The notes under the pieces are model-generated. The model did not search any database and was not told the origin of the DNA. It worked only from the letters and a program-made list of their open reading frames with translations. A program made the translations under genes and the position numbers. 64,000 bases of DNA. Source: Spirochaetae bacterium HGW-Spirochaetae-2. Lineage in GTDB: Bacteria; Spirochaetota; Spirochaetia; Sphaerochaetales; Sphaerochaetaceae. The stretch is from assembly GCA_002839355.1 (NCBI GenBank), contig PGXW01000008.1, positions 1 to 64,000 of the forward strand, given 5' to 3'. This document shows positions 557 through 63,231 of this stretch, piece after piece. How positions within the stretch are numbered: position 1 is the first letter of the stretch; each line of letters begins with the position of its first letter.

Positions 557-2014
557 ATGGGAAAGCAGGCTGACATCGGATTGATCGGATTGGCGGTAAT
601 GGGCCAGAACCTGGTCTTGAACATGAACGACCACGGATACACTGTAGCGGTGTACAACCGTACCGTTTCGAAAGTGGACGAATTCCTCAATGACGCGGCC
701 AAGGGTCGCGACACAATCATCGGCACCCGCTCGATCGAGGAATTGGTCGCATCGTTGGCAACACCGCGCAAGGTGATGCTCATGGTCAAGGCCGGCGAGG
801 TCGTCGACTCGTTCATAGACCTCCTGGTTCCCCACCTGGAGAAAGGCGATGTCATTATCGATGGTGGAAATTCCCATTTCCCCGACACCAACCGACGGAC
901 CGCGCAATTGCGTGAGAAGGGTATCCTCTATATCGGAACCGGTGTCAGCGGTGGAGAGGAAGGCGCGCGACGCGGTCCATCCATCATGCCGGGCGGAAAC
1001 AAGGAAGCATGGCCGTTGGTCAAGAATATCCTCCAGGACATCTCGGCGAAAGTGGACGATGGCAGCCCCTGTTGCGACTGGGTCGGCGAGGACGGTGCGG
1101 GCCACTATGTGAAGATGGTGCACAACGGGATCGAGTACGGCGACATGCAGATGATCTGCGAAGCCTACGACCTGCTGCATACCGGATTGGGACTGGACCA
1201 CGACGAACTCCACGACATATTCTCGGATTGGAACAAGGGCGACCTCGACTCCTATCTGATCGAAATTACCCGCGACATCATGAAGACCCGCGACGAGGAC
1301 GGCCAACCGTTGGTGGACAAGATCCTCGACAAGGCCGGACAGAAGGGAACGGGCAAATGGACGGGAATCAGCTCGCTGGACCTTGGTGTGCCGGTGACAT
1401 TGATTGTCGAAGCCGTGTATGCCCGTTGCCTCTCAGCACTGAAGACCGAACGGGTCAAGGCCTCCAAGATCATCGGTGGACCCGACCGTGCGATAGAAGG
1501 GGACCGGAAGGCCATTGTGGAGGATGCCCGCAAGGCGCTGTTCGCCTCCAAGATCGTCAGCTACGCCCAAGGGTACATGCTCATGCGCGAAGCGGCCAAG
1601 GAGAACGGTTGGGACCTGAACTATGGTGGCATCGCCCTCATGTGGCGTGGTGGATGCATTATCCGCAGCGTGTTCCTCGGCAAGATCAAGGAAGCGTTCG
1701 ACCATGACCCCCAATTGAGCAACCTGCTGGTCGACCCCTACTTCGTGCAGGTCATGGCCGATTGTCAGGGAGCCTGGAGACGAACGGTGGCCCGTGCGGT
1801 GACCGCGGGAATTCCCGTGCCCGCCATGAGCTCGGCGCTCTCGTTCTTCGACGGGTACCGCAGCGAGAAATTGCCCGCGAACCTGCTGCAGGCCCAACGC
1901 GACTACTTCGGTGCACACACCTACGAGCGCACCGACAAACCGGCCGGCGAGTTCTTCCACACGAACTGGACAGGAACCGGCGGCAACGTCTCGTCCTCGA
2001 CCTACCAGGTCTGA
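557..2014 (+). CDS. gnd: 6-phosphogluconate dehydrogenase, decarboxylating
   Basis: This 485-residue protein has the family's usual length for the long form. It oxidises and decarboxylates 6-phosphogluconate to ribulose 5-phosphate with NAD(P)+ in the cytosolic oxidative pentose phosphate pathway. The N-terminus shows the dinucleotide-binding loop 'GLIGLAVMGQN' (residues 8-18) and 'YNRT'. The substrate signature 'GVSGGEEGARRGPS' followed by 'IMPGG' lies near residues 130-148, and 'KMVHNGIEYGDM' near 185-196 carries the catalytic lysine region. The C-terminal tail 'LLQAQRDYFGAHTYER' is also typical. An AAGGAG ribosome site lies 8 nt upstream of the ATG. A strong terminator follows directly. 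Confidence 0.97.
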   Translation: MGKQADIGLIGLAVMGQNLVLNMNDHGYTVAVYNRTVSKVDEFLNDAAKGRDTIIGTRSIEELVASLATPRKVMLMVKAGEVVDSFIDLLVPHLEKGDVIIDGGNSHFPDTNRRTAQLREKGILYIGTGVSGGEEGARRGPSIMPGGNKEAWPLVKNILQDISAKVDDGSPCCDWVGEDGAGHYVKMVHNGIEYGDMQMICEAYDLLHTGLGLDHDELHDIFSDWNKGDLDSYLIEITRDIMKTRDEDGQPLVDKILDKAGQKGTGKWTGISSLDLGVPVTLIVEAVYARCLSALKTERVKASKIIGGPDRAIEGDRKAIVEDARKALFASKIVSYAQGYMLMREAAKENGWDLNYGGIALMWRGGCIIRSVFLGKIKEAFDHDPQLSNLLVDPYFVQVMADCQGAWRRTVARAVTAGIPVPAMSSALSFFDGYRSEKLPANLLQAQRDYFGAHTYERTDKPAGEFFHTNWTGTGGNVSSSTYQV

Positions 2015-31472: not shown

Positions 31473-31510
31473 ATTTTGAATACATAATACAAAAACGGAA
31501 CCAGGTACTT
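31473..31510 (+). repeat. Palindromic repeat unit 1
   Basis: ATTTTGAATACATAATACAA followed by AACGGAACCAGGTAC is a diverged copy of the family whose intact core is ATTTTGTATACAAAAT plus GGTGCCAGGCACC. It lies between repeat copy 2 and the end of the TetR gene. Confidence 0.6.
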
Positions 31511-57010: not shown

Positions 57011-57103
57011 GGTTATTTTGTACACTATAATCACCATTTTCTAGAGTATTTTGTTTATTACAGTAACCATTTTTTGATAGATTTTGTACACTACAACAAC
57101 CAT
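57011..57103 (-). repeat. Three 33-nt tandem repeats just upstream of the DUF4143 ATPase
   Basis: ATTTTGT recurs at 57015, 57048 and 57081, exactly 33 nt apart, each followed (plus strand) by a diverged stretch ending in ACCATT. In the minus frame that leads into the ATPase they would encode 11-residue repeats (NGCCSVQNLSK, NGYCNKQNTLE, NGDYSVQNNQP). They are either an operator with three sites or part of the protein. Confidence 0.7.
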
Positions 57104-57152
57104 TATTGCCCAAATCCATCGGGTTGAGCCAAATCCCCAAGTGTGGAATAGT

Positions 57153-58824: not shown

Positions 58825-59394
58825 TCAGAATCGGTAGCGCAAACTCACCTGCGGCAGGATCTCCAGAGCAAACTGCTCGTGCGCCACCGGCTCGATCGGC
58901 CTCCAGAACAGCGCGTACACCATTTCCGTCGAGACAGCGAAATGTTCGAAGAACACAGCCTCTACCCCCACACCGCCGCCCAAGCCGAACTCGGGATGGA
59001 AGTCCCCGGCGACATAAGTACCGGAATATGGTGGTGTTTCGACCGCCTCCTTGTAGCCCCGGTGGTTGATACCCGCGAGCACATAGAGCCTGCTCGACAG
59101 CCACGTGGAGAAATCGTCGGAGAATATCGCATAATAGCCTTGTGCCCCGGCATTGTAGTTGAACACATCGTGCCCGTCATCCATGAGCGGATGGTACAAC
59201 GCTCCCGCCGCGAACTGGTAGCCCCACGGACCGTCCCACTTCTGGTAACTCAACCCGATTCCCGCGATCCTGCCGACTTGGACACCCAACGCCCGTGGGA
59301 ATGTGGTGAACGCCAGGTCTTCGGCATGCACAGTGCCCACCATTGCGACTAGAACCAAGAGGAATATTGCAAAAAATTGAAACGACTTTCGCAC
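58825..59394 (-). CDS. Small outer-membrane beta-barrel protein
   Basis: This is a 189-residue exported protein. A signal peptide of about 24 residues ends in 'GTVHAED'. The mature part alternates hydrophobic and polar residues in short strands rich in Gly, Tyr and Phe ('FGLGGGVGVEAVFFEHFAVS') and ends in a Phe preceded by 'VSLRYR', the usual signature for outer-membrane barrel insertion. Length fits an eight-stranded barrel. Function unknown. It is divergent from the ECF sigma gene, whose repeat-rich upstream region it shares. Confidence 0.72.
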   Translation of the reverse strand: MRKSFQFFAIFLLVLVAMVGTVHAEDLAFTTFPRALGVQVGRIAGIGLSYQKWDGPWGYQFAAGALYHPLMDDGHDVFNYNAGAQGYYAIFSDDFSTWLSSRLYVLAGINHRGYKEAVETPPYSGTYVAGDFHPEFGLGGGVGVEAVFFEHFAVSTEMVYALFWRPIEPVAHEQFALEILPQVSLRYRF

Positions 59395-59410
59395 GGAATG
59401 AGTATATCAT

Positions 59411-59493
59411 AGGTACCAGGTACGAAAGTAAGTTTTTGTATTCAAAATGTGAACATGGTACCAGGTACGAAAAAGGGATTATGTATACAAAAT
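59411..59493. repeat. Palindromic repeat units 7a/7b, double copy
   Basis: GGTACCAGGTAC (59412-59423), a TTTTGTATTCAAAATG core near 59434-59449, a second GGTACCAGGTAC (59457-59468) and ATGTATACAAAAT (59481-59493). The start codon of the ECF sigma gene is the ATG of the last motif. Confidence 0.75.
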
Positions 59494-60092
59494 CCGAGAC
59501 CGATGGAAAGCATCACGATCTCGATACCCAGTTGGTATACCGTACGTTGCATGAGGACAAGGAAGCTTTCGGCCAACTTGTCTCATCGTATACGCCGACG
59601 TTCTATGCGCTCGTCAAACGCATGGCCCCCGACAAGTCCCCCGAAAGCATCGAGGACGACTTGCAGGAGATTTTCCTACGCATCTACCGGGCACTGCCGA
59701 CCTTCCGCGAAGGCAGTCCGTTCTTTTCGTGGGCCTACACCATTGCCATCAACTGGATCCGCTCGCAACGGCGCAAGGAACGGACCCGCAAAGCTGTCTC
59801 CCCCATACCCTATGACGAAGAAGCCGCGGTATTGCAAGGGAACCACCATACCGACGCACCCGAGGAAGCTGCGATCGTAGCCGAAGCAGAGCATCTGGTG
59901 ATGCAGGCCCTCAAGGAGCTCAAACCCGCCTACCGCGAGGTCTTCATCCTTCGCATGATGCAAGGCCTCTCGGTCACCGATACGGCCAAGGTGCTGCGCA
60001 TACCCGAAGGGACGGTAAAGACCTATCTGCATCGTGGACGCAGGAAACTGCGCGACTGGTTGGTGAAACACCATTGGAATCCAGAGGATTGA
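59481..60092 (+). CDS. ECF-type RNA polymerase sigma factor
   Basis: This is a 203-residue sigma factor. Region 2 runs from 'FYALVKRMAPDK' to 'SIEDDLQEIFLRIYRALPTF' and 'FFSWAYTIAINWIRSQRRKE'. Region 4 has 'LKELKPAYREVFILRMMQGL', 'SVTDTAKVLRIPEGTVKTYL' and 'HRGRRKLRDWL'. It directs RNA polymerase to a specific set of promoters. The ATG is provided by the palindromic repeat and lies 4 nt after a weak GGGATT, so expression may be low. The anti-sigma gene follows 69 nt later. Confidence 0.92.
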   Translation: MYTKSETDGKHHDLDTQLVYRTLHEDKEAFGQLVSSYTPTFYALVKRMAPDKSPESIEDDLQEIFLRIYRALPTFREGSPFFSWAYTIAINWIRSQRRKERTRKAVSPIPYDEEAAVLQGNHHTDAPEEAAIVAEAEHLVMQALKELKPAYREVFILRMMQGLSVTDTAKVLRIPEGTVKTYLHRGRRKLRDWLVKHHWNPED

Positions 60093-60161
60093 GCCAAATT
60101 GTGAAACCGATATATACCGAATGCGTACGGTATGTATAGGCTGCAAAAAGGAGGGGCTACC

Positions 60162-60833
60162 ATGAACTGCAAAGAATGCAACGCATACATCGATCGATTT
60201 CTCGGACAACTGGAGCAGACCGGACCCGCCGGCACCTCTTTTGCAGACATCGATCGGCAGGTGCTCGACCACATGTCCCGTTGCCACGCTTGTGCGGTAC
60301 GGATGCAAGCCGCTCGCATGGTAGTCCACACGAGTGGGCACGATGCGGCCACAGTACCGGACCTGCCCGACGGATTGCAGGCCAGGGTCACCGAGTCGGT
60401 GCTCGCCGCAATTCGGCAGGAGGATGCGCACACAGTGTTCAAGGACCGCTCGAACCGGCGTTCCCGCCTACAAAAGTACCTGGCGGCGGCTGTAGCCGTT
60501 CTGGTGCTGATCCCGCTTGTCGGCGATCGCGACCGGGGCTTCATACCGGCACAGGAATCCGCCTCCCAAGTGGCACAGGTCGTGTTGCAGCTCGAAGCCC
60601 CGCAAGCCGAGGTTGTGGTGGTGGTCGGCGACTGGAACAACTGGGACCCGCAGGTCCAACACCTCGCCAAAAGCAACGGGGAAGGAACATGGAGCATCAT
60701 GATGGAACTGGAGCGTGGTAGGGAATACCGCTACCAATTCGTCATCGATGGAGAGCGATGGATACCCGATCCGAATGCCTACCTACAGGTGGACGATGGA
60801 TTCGGCGGCAAGAACTCTGTTCTTGAAATGTAG
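60162..60833 (+). CDS. Membrane anti-sigma factor with an external glycogen-binding-like (CBM48) domain
   Basis: This is a 223-residue protein. Residues 1 to about 50 form a zinc-finger anti-sigma domain ('MNCKECNAY', then 'HMSRCHACAVRM'). A single membrane helix ('YLAAAVAVLVLIPLVG') lies near residues 107-122. The C-terminal 85 residues match the AMPK/CBM48 glycogen-binding fold ('VVVVVGDWNNWDPQVQHLAK', 'REYRYQFVIDGERWIPDPNA'). The topology predicts that the CBM48-like domain faces the periplasm and might sense a glucan. GGAGG precedes ATG 60162. It would hold the ECF sigma factor inactive until a signal arrives. Confidence 0.85.
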   Translation: MNCKECNAYIDRFLGQLEQTGPAGTSFADIDRQVLDHMSRCHACAVRMQAARMVVHTSGHDAATVPDLPDGLQARVTESVLAAIRQEDAHTVFKDRSNRRSRLQKYLAAAVAVLVLIPLVGDRDRGFIPAQESASQVAQVVLQLEAPQAEVVVVVGDWNNWDPQVQHLAKSNGEGTWSIMMELERGREYRYQFVIDGERWIPDPNAYLQVDDGFGGKNSVLEM

Positions 60834-60842
60834 GAGCGACAC

Positions 60843-61460
60843 ATGAAACGATTGGTAACGATGGTAATGATACTGGCTTTGGTGTTCGGATCGGTGTATG
60901 GCGCCGAGAGCGCGACTTCGGATGGAAGTGCATTCCTCTCCGAATTGGCATACCAACTGCGGTTGCGCGGGTGGAATGAAGGGGAACTAGGCACATTCAC
61001 CGAACAAGCCCGCCTGATGCAGTGGGATGAAGCCCGCATGGCCGACCCCGCGATGGTGGCCTATGCCCTCCACTATGGTACCCACGACGAGGCCGACATC
61101 TCCGGGGAAATGGCCACGGTCCGTGCCCAGCTGGCGCTGCAATTGGCGATCGAGACCCGTGAGTTGGAGCGGTTGGGATATGGCACCCAAGCTATCGCCC
61201 AAGGCGCGGCACTGGGCGTCCGCGATATTACAGCCCAGATACGCGCCGAGGCGACCGAACGTACCGGTACACCTATGGGACCCGAGATGGGCCTCCTGGT
61301 TCGGAATTCCGTGCGCAACGCAGTGGCCCAGCAACAAAAGAATGCTCCCCGCAACGCATCAGCAGGTAGCGCCGGCAAAGGATCCGCGGTAACATTCGGT
61401 CAACCGATGCCAGGATTGGGCAACCGTCCCGGCAGCAACCCGGGTGGCATGAAGAAGTAG
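60843..61460 (+). CDS. Secreted protein of the sigma operon, unknown
   Basis: This is a 205-residue exported protein. A signal peptide ('MKRLVTMVMILALVFGSVYG', residues 1-20) leads into an alpha-helical, Ala/Glu/Leu-rich region, and the last 40 residues are low-complexity and Gly/Pro/Ala-rich ('RNASAGSAGKGSAVTF', 'GNRPGSNPGGMKK'). No known domain. It starts 9 nt after the anti-sigma stop and is followed 9 nt later by another exported helical protein with a similar opening. Confidence 0.75.
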   Translation: MKRLVTMVMILALVFGSVYGAESATSDGSAFLSELAYQLRLRGWNEGELGTFTEQARLMQWDEARMADPAMVAYALHYGTHDEADISGEMATVRAQLALQLAIETRELERLGYGTQAIAQGAALGVRDITAQIRAEATERTGTPMGPEMGLLVRNSVRNAVAQQQKNAPRNASAGSAGKGSAVTFGQPMPGLGNRPGSNPGGMKK

Positions 61461-61469
61461 GAGCATAAC

Positions 61470-62180
61470 GTGGCGATGCATGGCAGCAAGACAACAATTG
61501 TTCTCATCCTCATGGTTCTGTGGATTCTGGCAGGGAGCTTGCTCTCTGCCGATTCCTCGTTTGCACGGGTCGAGCAGAAGATGCAATCGTCCCAATTCTC
61601 CGAAACCGACAAGGCACAGATGATGGGTATCCTCGAGCAAGCCGAGCAGCAGTCCATTCCCACCGAAGTGCTGGTCCTGCGTCTCGAGGAAGGCTTGGCC
61701 AAACGCATCCCCCCACACTCGCTTTACAATGCATTGATGTTGGAACTGCAGGCATACAATGAGACACGGAAGCTTGTCCTGGACCACCTCGGTCACCAGG
61801 AGGGCACACGATTGCTGTCAGACAGTACCATTTGGTCACGAACCGCGACATTGTATCGGCAGGGAGTTCCCGAAGTGGACCTGGCGGCATTGCTCGACAT
61901 GTTCAACCACCAGGAGTCGCAGGAGAAATGGGACAACTACCGCTATGGCGGAGGCCTGCTGATCGCGCTCCGGCATTGGGGACTGGACAATGGGCCCAGC
62001 TTCTCGGTGATCGAAGCCTTGTCCCGCTCCCCCATACCGGGGGAAGACTACCGCGTTGTCGTCGACCTGTTCACCAAGGGATTCGCCAACCGCATTTCAC
62101 CGGACGATATGGTCCGCCGAATCGTACAATCCGCCCCAAGGAGCCGTTCGATCTCCATGCTCGAGCGGTTGGTACGATAA
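61470..62180 (+). CDS. Secreted helical protein of the sigma operon, unknown
   Basis: This is a 236-residue protein. A hydrophobic segment (about residues 9-27) acts as signal or anchor. The rest is helical ('FARVEQKMQSSQFSETDKAQ', 'VLVLRLEEGLAKRIPPHSLY') and the C-terminus 'FTKGFANRISPDDMVRRI' repeats the earlier 'LAKRIPPHSLYNAL' theme, hinting at two related halves. GTG 61470 is 6 nt from AGGAG; ATG 61476 is an alternative. No known domain. Confidence 0.72.
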   Translation: MAMHGSKTTIVLILMVLWILAGSLLSADSSFARVEQKMQSSQFSETDKAQMMGILEQAEQQSIPTEVLVLRLEEGLAKRIPPHSLYNALMLELQAYNETRKLVLDHLGHQEGTRLLSDSTIWSRTATLYRQGVPEVDLAALLDMFNHQESQEKWDNYRYGGGLLIALRHWGLDNGPSFSVIEALSRSPIPGEDYRVVVDLFTKGFANRISPDDMVRRIVQSAPRSRSISMLERLVR

Positions 62181-62196
62181 CATGAGGAGACTATCC

Positions 62197-63144
62197 ATGC
62201 GACTGTTCAACAAAAGGCTCATCGTGCTTGGTATCATAGCTTTGGCAACCGTACACGGCATAGGCGCGCAGTCCTCGGTGTTTCTCGGTGCGTTCGGCGA
62301 CTACGCCTACACCGACAGTCCCCCAGCGCACTCGGGCGAGATCGGCCTCCATGGAAATTTCGATTACCGCTCGCTGATCGGATCGGCCGGATACTTCAAC
62401 CTGACTGCTTTCGGGGAAATTTCCATCGATCCGACCGATTCCGCCACCTCAGATTACCTCGCTGTCGATGCGCACGGGTTGTGGTATGTGGGTGACAACG
62501 ATATGGAATTGACAATCGGCTCCGAATCCTCCTTCGCCGGCTATGACGGCTACGAGGCGTACTGGTCGCCCCATTGGGAACTCGCCTACCGTATCCAACG
62601 GGGACGCACATCGATCAATCCCAGCATAACCTACTCGGGATATGCGACCTCGACCCACGTTTCGCATGGCGCGCAGGTAGGCATCACCCGGGCTCCCAAG
62701 GTCGAACTGGAATATTCGGTGGCGGCCGGGGGTGGAATCGACACCTATGCCGATGCCGGCCAGACGGATCTATTCGCCTCCCTCACCTACTCGGTCAATG
62801 GATTGTCGGGATACTTCCTCAGTTGGAACATCCTCGGCTCATCGACCTACCGTTCGTCAGACGACAACACCAGGGAGGGGTTCTCCGGTTCCCTGTCGGC
62901 CCAAGCCACACTGACACCTTCGAGCACCCTGCAAGTGCGCTTCACCCCCACCTGGTACTGGAAATATCTTACCTCCACATCGCAATGGGACCAAGGGTGG
63001 GACATTTCCGCCCGCGCTGATGTGGCGATTTCCGAACACGTGTACTGCTATGCCGGTCCATCGATAATCGTCGGTCGGATGTTGGATCCCGCGGATGCAC
63101 CCTGGAGTGTGCACATCACAGCCGGAGTGGACGTAAGTCTCTGA
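62197..63144 (+). CDS. Outer-membrane beta-barrel protein of the sigma operon
   Basis: This is a 315-residue exported protein. The signal peptide ends in 'HGIGAQS'. The body is a series of short strands with alternating hydrophobics and many Tyr, Ser and Gly ('ELAYRIQRGRTSINPSITYS', 'LQVRFTPTWYWKYL'), compatible with a 12- to 16-stranded barrel. It ends 'HITAGVDVSL', with Leu in place of the usual terminal aromatic. ATG 62197 is chosen over upstream ones because AGGAG lies 7 nt before it. As last gene of the ECF operon it is a likely structural target of that stress or sugar response. Confidence 0.75.
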   Translation: MRLFNKRLIVLGIIALATVHGIGAQSSVFLGAFGDYAYTDSPPAHSGEIGLHGNFDYRSLIGSAGYFNLTAFGEISIDPTDSATSDYLAVDAHGLWYVGDNDMELTIGSESSFAGYDGYEAYWSPHWELAYRIQRGRTSINPSITYSGYATSTHVSHGAQVGITRAPKVELEYSVAAGGGIDTYADAGQTDLFASLTYSVNGLSGYFLSWNILGSSTYRSSDDNTREGFSGSLSAQATLTPSSTLQVRFTPTWYWKYLTSTSQWDQGWDISARADVAISEHVYCYAGPSIIVGRMLDPADAPWSVHITAGVDVSL

Positions 63145-63146
63145 CC

Positions 63147-63202
63147 GTGCCAGGTACCGTTTTTCAATTTTGCATACAAAATACAAATTTGGTGCCAGGC
63201 AC
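63147..63202. repeat. Palindromic repeat unit 8, full length
   Basis: GTGCCAGGTACC (63147-63158), the core ATTTTGCATACAAAAT (63167-63182) and GGTGCCAGGCAC (63191-63202). The whole 56-nt unit is nearly self-complementary. It directly abuts the -35 box of the next promoter. Confidence 0.8.
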
Positions 63203-63231
63203 TTGACGTGCGCATTTCCAAGGAGTATAGT
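63203..63231 (+). promoter_or_regulatory. Promoter next to repeat unit 8, leading to rsgA
   Basis: TTGACG (63203-63208), a 17-nt spacer and TATAGT (63226-63231). The -35 box starts directly after the repeat's GGCAC. Confidence 0.6.

Follow-up and report, generated by a model that had tools for sequence, protein, structure and literature searches.

Gene content and conservation of the operon

The stretch of DNA analysed here (the window) is 64,000 nt long, and at positions 59481-63144 of its forward strand it contains five genes on the same strand with short intergenic gaps (Table 1). An initial annotation had described a one-direction operon of a sigma factor, an anti-sigma factor, two exported helical proteins, and a barrel, and all five genes were indeed found at this place. 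As judged from the sequences, the five-gene arrangement is more than chance: 16 spirochaete loci repeat the order, and relatives tend to encode the proteins jointly. A sequence scan of the region recovered no convincing sigma-70-type promoter and no terminator-like site inside the operon, which we count in favor of reading the locus as an autoregulated module.

Table 1. Genes, putative promoters, and protein regions of the operon, with window coordinates.
Feature	Position	Strand	Evidence
Putative promoter P1 (TGAAACG-N16-AGTATA), 5′ of the sigma gene	59378..59406	+	Motif 5′ of sigma in almost every locus whose flank is complete
ECF sigma factor, 203 aa	59481..60092	+	Pfam/NCBIfam above cut-off; orthologue in 16 loci
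Putative promoter P2 (TGAAACC-N15-CGTACG), in the sigma/anti-sigma gap	60102..60129	+	Motif in 14/16 loci
P0002, anti-sigma factor of 223 aa with a zinc motif, a transmembrane helix, and a CBM48/AMPK-type domain at the C-terminus	60162..60833	+	
Predicted transmembrane helix of P0002, aa 106-122, positive residues on N-terminal side	60477..60527	+	Hydropathy
CBM48/AMPK-type domain of P0002, aa ~136-223	60567..60830	+	Profile matches, alignment
P0003, exported helical protein, 205 aa	60843..61460	+	
P0004, exported helical protein, 236 aa, GTG start	61470..62180	+	
P0005, probable outer-membrane beta-barrel, 320 aa	62182..63144	+	

The genome-collection scan took in 80 loci. Orthologues of the anti-sigma factor were present in 16 named loci from spirochaete MAGs, with the same gene order wherever the contig allowed: 14 had all five genes ordered alike, some being cut by contig ends, and two ran off the contig. 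With 91% identity in the anti-sigma factor, Spirochaetae bacterium HGW-Spirochaetae-4 was the nearest named record. In a set of 60 relatives, P0002, P0003, and P0004 co-occurred. An apparent P0003-P0004 fusion in one locus (L065) was rejected as an artefact of N runs. Within the window's own family the operon was patchy, with a minority of near relatives having it, and this counts against the module reading.

Across 393 Spirochaetota genomes, a sigma factor with a membrane CBM48 protein recurred, with or without the zinc motif and often followed by a P0004-like gene. No relative was found on viral contigs. The zinc-less sigma/membrane CBM48 operons (L217-L219, L221-L222, L225-L226, L228, and L230) included several with a P0004-like gene after them. 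Stand-alone exported CBM48 proteins were seen in other spirochaete families (L027-L032), mostly beside a protein of ~1000 aa, and several of these also adjoined an oligopeptide-type transporter. In L223, a second CBM48 lipoprotein-like gene (1119-1475, minus strand) lay directly 3′ of the membrane CBM48 gene.

The sigma factor and two putative promoters

The sigma factor scored 103 bits against TIGR02937 in profile searches, with Sigma70_r2 and Sigma70_r4_2 above cut-off, and it has region 2 and region 4 only, as ECF (group 4) sigma factors do. Located 5′ of the sigma gene in relatives was a shared pair of elements, TGAAACC and CGTATA (TGAAACC-N15-CGTATA), which was repeated between the sigma and anti-sigma genes. 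A P2-type motif occurred within 150 nt before the anti-sigma gene in 14 of the 16 loci, versus 0.014 expected from first-order shuffles, and before later operon genes in none of 35 flanks. Nearly every operon thus appears to have two copies of one putative ECF promoter, a new finding of this analysis. It is their conserved position that suggests recognition of P1 and P2 by the sigma factor, which would then direct its own operon through both, making the module autoregulated. The TGAAAC and CGTA cores, at about the same spacing, resemble Bacillus sigma-W-type ECF promoters; the latter belong to another phylum and have other predicted targets than the spirochaete motif, the likeness being one of motif only.

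Other features were noted around P1. A divergent gene (58825-59394, minus strand) encodes a 189-aa small barrel-like protein and has a GTG start that falls inside P1. An interspersed repeat of ~38 nt, ATTTTGCATACAAAATnCAAAAATGGTGCCTGGCAC, has six copies in the window, one between P1 and the sigma start (59412-59493), one directly 3′ of the barrel gene (63146-63204), and others at 31473, 46429, 50186, and 50849. Additionally, three 24-nt copies of ATTTTGTACACTATAATCACCATT were located at 57015-57104 with 33-nt spacing.

The anti-sigma factor and its CBM48-type domain

The anti-sigma factor probably starts at the MNC at 60162 and not at the upstream ATG at 60132. Its N-terminal domain contains Cys3 and an Hx3Cx2C motif (His37-x3-Cys41-x2-Cys44), all four residues being invariant in the orthologue alignment. 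Zinc-type class I anti-sigma domains are generally recognised by this motif (PMC7406223). No curated anti-sigma family passed its cut-off (NF052375, 36 bits versus 100; zf-HC2 reached just E=0.054, in one member), so that membership of the zinc class I group rests on motif and context, and binding and inhibition of the cognate sigma factor are predictions. The transmembrane helix corresponds to the sole hydrophobic stretch of the protein and agrees with the positive-inside rule, placing the CBM48-type domain on the outer side. The linker between membrane and domain ranged from 9 to 46 residues across members, with 16 in the window protein, and was short in most. Zinc motif, topology, and Pfam matches therefore agree with the earlier description of an anti-sigma factor with a zinc finger, one membrane helix, and a CBM48/AMPK-type outer domain.

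The outer domain belongs to the CBM48/AMPK type by profile score (AMPK1_CBM, 34.6 bits with a cut-off of 26.8; CBM_48, 34.6 bits with a cut-off of 22.4), and CBM_48 matched 16/16 core members at E≤0.1. It was the most conserved part of the anti-sigma factor, including the exposed loop residues DGFGG-NS. In the window genome, this was the sole CBM_48 protein found, and six GH13 matches exist there.

The sugar-holding residues of AMPK are Trp100, Trp133, Lys126, and Asn150 (PMC9788615), and both Trp are indispensable in PTST, a CBM48 protein of plants (PMC4339375). In the window protein, Trp100 aligned with Trp161, Trp133 with Trp200, Lys126 with Gln192, and Asn150 with Asn218, the last pairing being taken from the loop pattern; profile alignments end before Asn218. 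The initial annotation had pointed to the key CBM48 residues and held that its reading would fail if the glucan-binding ones were lacking and homologues showed the domain to pack onto the membrane only. Such a loss was not seen, as three of the four are kept in the core: the equivalents of Trp100, Trp133, and Asn150 were retained throughout the complete core orthologues (15-16 of 16), whereas the Lys126 position is Gln in every complete core member, which counts against a glucan ligand. Among 18 more distant anti-sigma-like proteins, Trp was present at the two positions in 18/18 and 15/18, and Asn at the Asn150 position in just 5/18. The Trp of the FNxW motif is widespread in CBM48 domains generally and is for this reason weak evidence of binding, Trp200 being the more telling of the two. 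The likeness to the AMPK beta glycogen-binding domain comprises the Pfam match and the expected placement of two binding Trp and one Asn, while the spirochaete domain differs in having Gln for Lys126, in being periplasmic, and in being fused to an anti-sigma factor. The domain may bind a glucan or similar glycan and may be the sensor of the switch.

Exported proteins

Profile searches returned no Pfam or NCBIfam family for P0003, P0004, or P0005. AlphaFold models built from 17-sequence alignments were all-helical for both P0004 (mean pLDDT 90.9) and P0003 (76.9), the latter with a disordered, Gly/Pro-rich tail (aa 174-205), and fold searches of the PDB matched neither model at E<0.001. P0005 has a signal peptide and 15 alternating beta segments, compared with 8.2 in shuffles (2/1000 shuffles were as high), and its orthologues have a hydrophobic/aromatic C-terminal end, in keeping with a probable outer-membrane barrel.

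Predicted targets

Genome-wide scans with the strict motif gave 37 sites versus 4 reversed-control sites in eleven more distant genomes and 18 versus 11 in the seven nearest genomes. Single sites in the nearest genomes mean little for this reason. In the six nearest genomes the scan hardly exceeded its controls once the operon and DUF4382 sites were set aside, and this counts against the module reading. The window genome had one extra site in common with its nearest relative, and this precedes the gene for a DUF4382 lipoprotein; a DUF4382 lipoprotein gene also lies behind the motif in the distant genome G065, where it is divergent from the operon. Moreover, a paralogue of P0003 stands behind its own motif in G061 and G066. 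A relaxed scan revealed no further site common to the window genome and its relative. The regulon search by promoter motif that had been suggested initially returned few sites, those backed by more than one genome being at the operon, the DUF4382 gene, and the P0003 paralogue, and no alpha-glucan enzyme was among the targets predicted by the scans, so that a sugar-utilisation regulon is not supported.

Lone sites without a counterpart in a relative (e.g., G000:C47 and C80, and those at hydrogenase, GH11, and DOMON genes elsewhere) were rejected as targets because control sites occurred at a similar rate. One of the distant genomes has a gene for a GH11 protein with a CBM60-like stretch (L207, 1985-2950, minus strand) 190 nt behind a motif site, which may be chance.

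Proposed mechanism and alternatives

As the best reading, at a probability of roughly 0.45, we tentatively favor an ECF module for envelope homeostasis that is autoregulated and has its CBM48 sensor close to the membrane. The genes, their order, the zinc motif, topology, domain, kept residues, and both promoter sites are read from the sequence, whereas we infer sigma recognition of the sites, proteolysis, a ligand, and an envelope role, as follows. The cytoplasmic zinc-motif domain of the anti-sigma factor would hold the sigma factor at the inner membrane, and the CBM48-type domain, in the periplasm ~16 residues from the membrane, would be the sensor, with a glucan or similar glycan as its probable ligand. 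Altered occupancy of the domain would open or close the linker to proteolysis, and sigma, once freed, would fire P1 (sigma itself), P2 (the anti-sigma factor, both helical proteins, and the barrel), and the DUF4382 lipoprotein gene elsewhere in the genome. Because P2 would raise the anti-sigma factor together with the output, the response would shut itself off. The envelope role is suggested by the exported products, and the envelope programme proposed initially fits promoter sites before the module genes and before an envelope lipoprotein gene. The alpha-glucan signal proposed with it fared less evenly: the Trp and Asn residues are kept in the core, but predicted targets lack alpha-glucan enzymes and the Asn150 position is not kept in distant relatives.

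Loss of Lys126 and predicted targets without sugar enzymes would suit a CBM48-type domain that offers P0003, P0004, or the barrel a docking face, with these as co-regulators in the manner of RseB on RseA, and that reports the status of envelope proteins and not sugar. P0003 and P0004 always accompany the anti-sigma factor, and P0004-like genes stand after even the zinc-less variants. However, distant members keep both aromatic positions of the glucan face (18/18 and 15/18 Trp), neither of which pure docking needs, and we consider this explanation unlikely. Still less probable is an outer domain that is a ligand-free structural spacer, or a cap over the cleavage site, with the true signal acting on the membrane helix or a protease; although the linker is short in most members and CBM48 folds can be structural, a domain that is the best-conserved part of the protein, exposed loop included, argues otherwise.

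The least probable explanation is a polysaccharide-utilisation switch like clostridial RsgI, in which external starch or another glucan triggers the sigma factor to express degradation and uptake genes. In its favor, the kind of domain and the topology are like those of RsgI, which binds polysaccharides through its outer domains (PMC4711584), the genomes encode several GH13 proteins, and a motif site precedes a GH11 xylanase gene in one of the distant genomes. Yet sites common to the window genome and its nearest relative comprise the operon and the DUF4382 lipoprotein gene only, and the xylanase is an isolated case that chance could explain, control sites having a similar per-genome rate.

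Relation to known systems

The SigI/RsgI systems of Clostridium thermocellum have the same plan of a cytoplasmic sigma-binding part, one span, and an outer carbohydrate-binding domain, and rsgI5 is served by a separate sigma-I promoter located between the sigma and anti-sigma genes (PMC4711584); there, the sigma factor drives its own operon, as proposed for the spirochaete module. In contrast, sigma-I is not ECF, RsgI lacks a zinc anti-sigma domain at its N-terminus, CBM3, PA14, or GH10 takes the place of CBM48, and the targets are cellulosome genes, which were not seen in the spirochaetes here. Profile searches of the spirochaete proteins gave no RsgI family match, placing them outside SigI/RsgI; RsgI works alike but is not homologous to the spirochaete anti-sigma factor. 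Zinc proteins with a class I anti-sigma domain (ASDI), e.g., RsiW and ChrR, have in common with it the Hx3Cx2C motif and N-terminal sigma-binding part, and membrane-bound forms are common among them (PMC7406223). No ASDI protein with a CBM48 outer domain was described in the literature searched.

At the level of sequence, support is good for both the module and its layout of two promoters, and a glucan signal is a candidate. A more speculative and doubtful proposal is a spirochaete phylum-wide family in which a periplasmic AMPK-type domain on the anti-sigma factor senses an envelope glycan and a two-promoter feedback controls two new exported helical families and a barrel. If true, the polysaccharide-sensing anti-sigma factors of clostridia would have a Gram-negative counterpart of the ECF type, two families of exported proteins with unmatched folds would be tied to a defined pathway, and spirochaete envelope biology would gain a named module of regulation whose promoter code can be tested.
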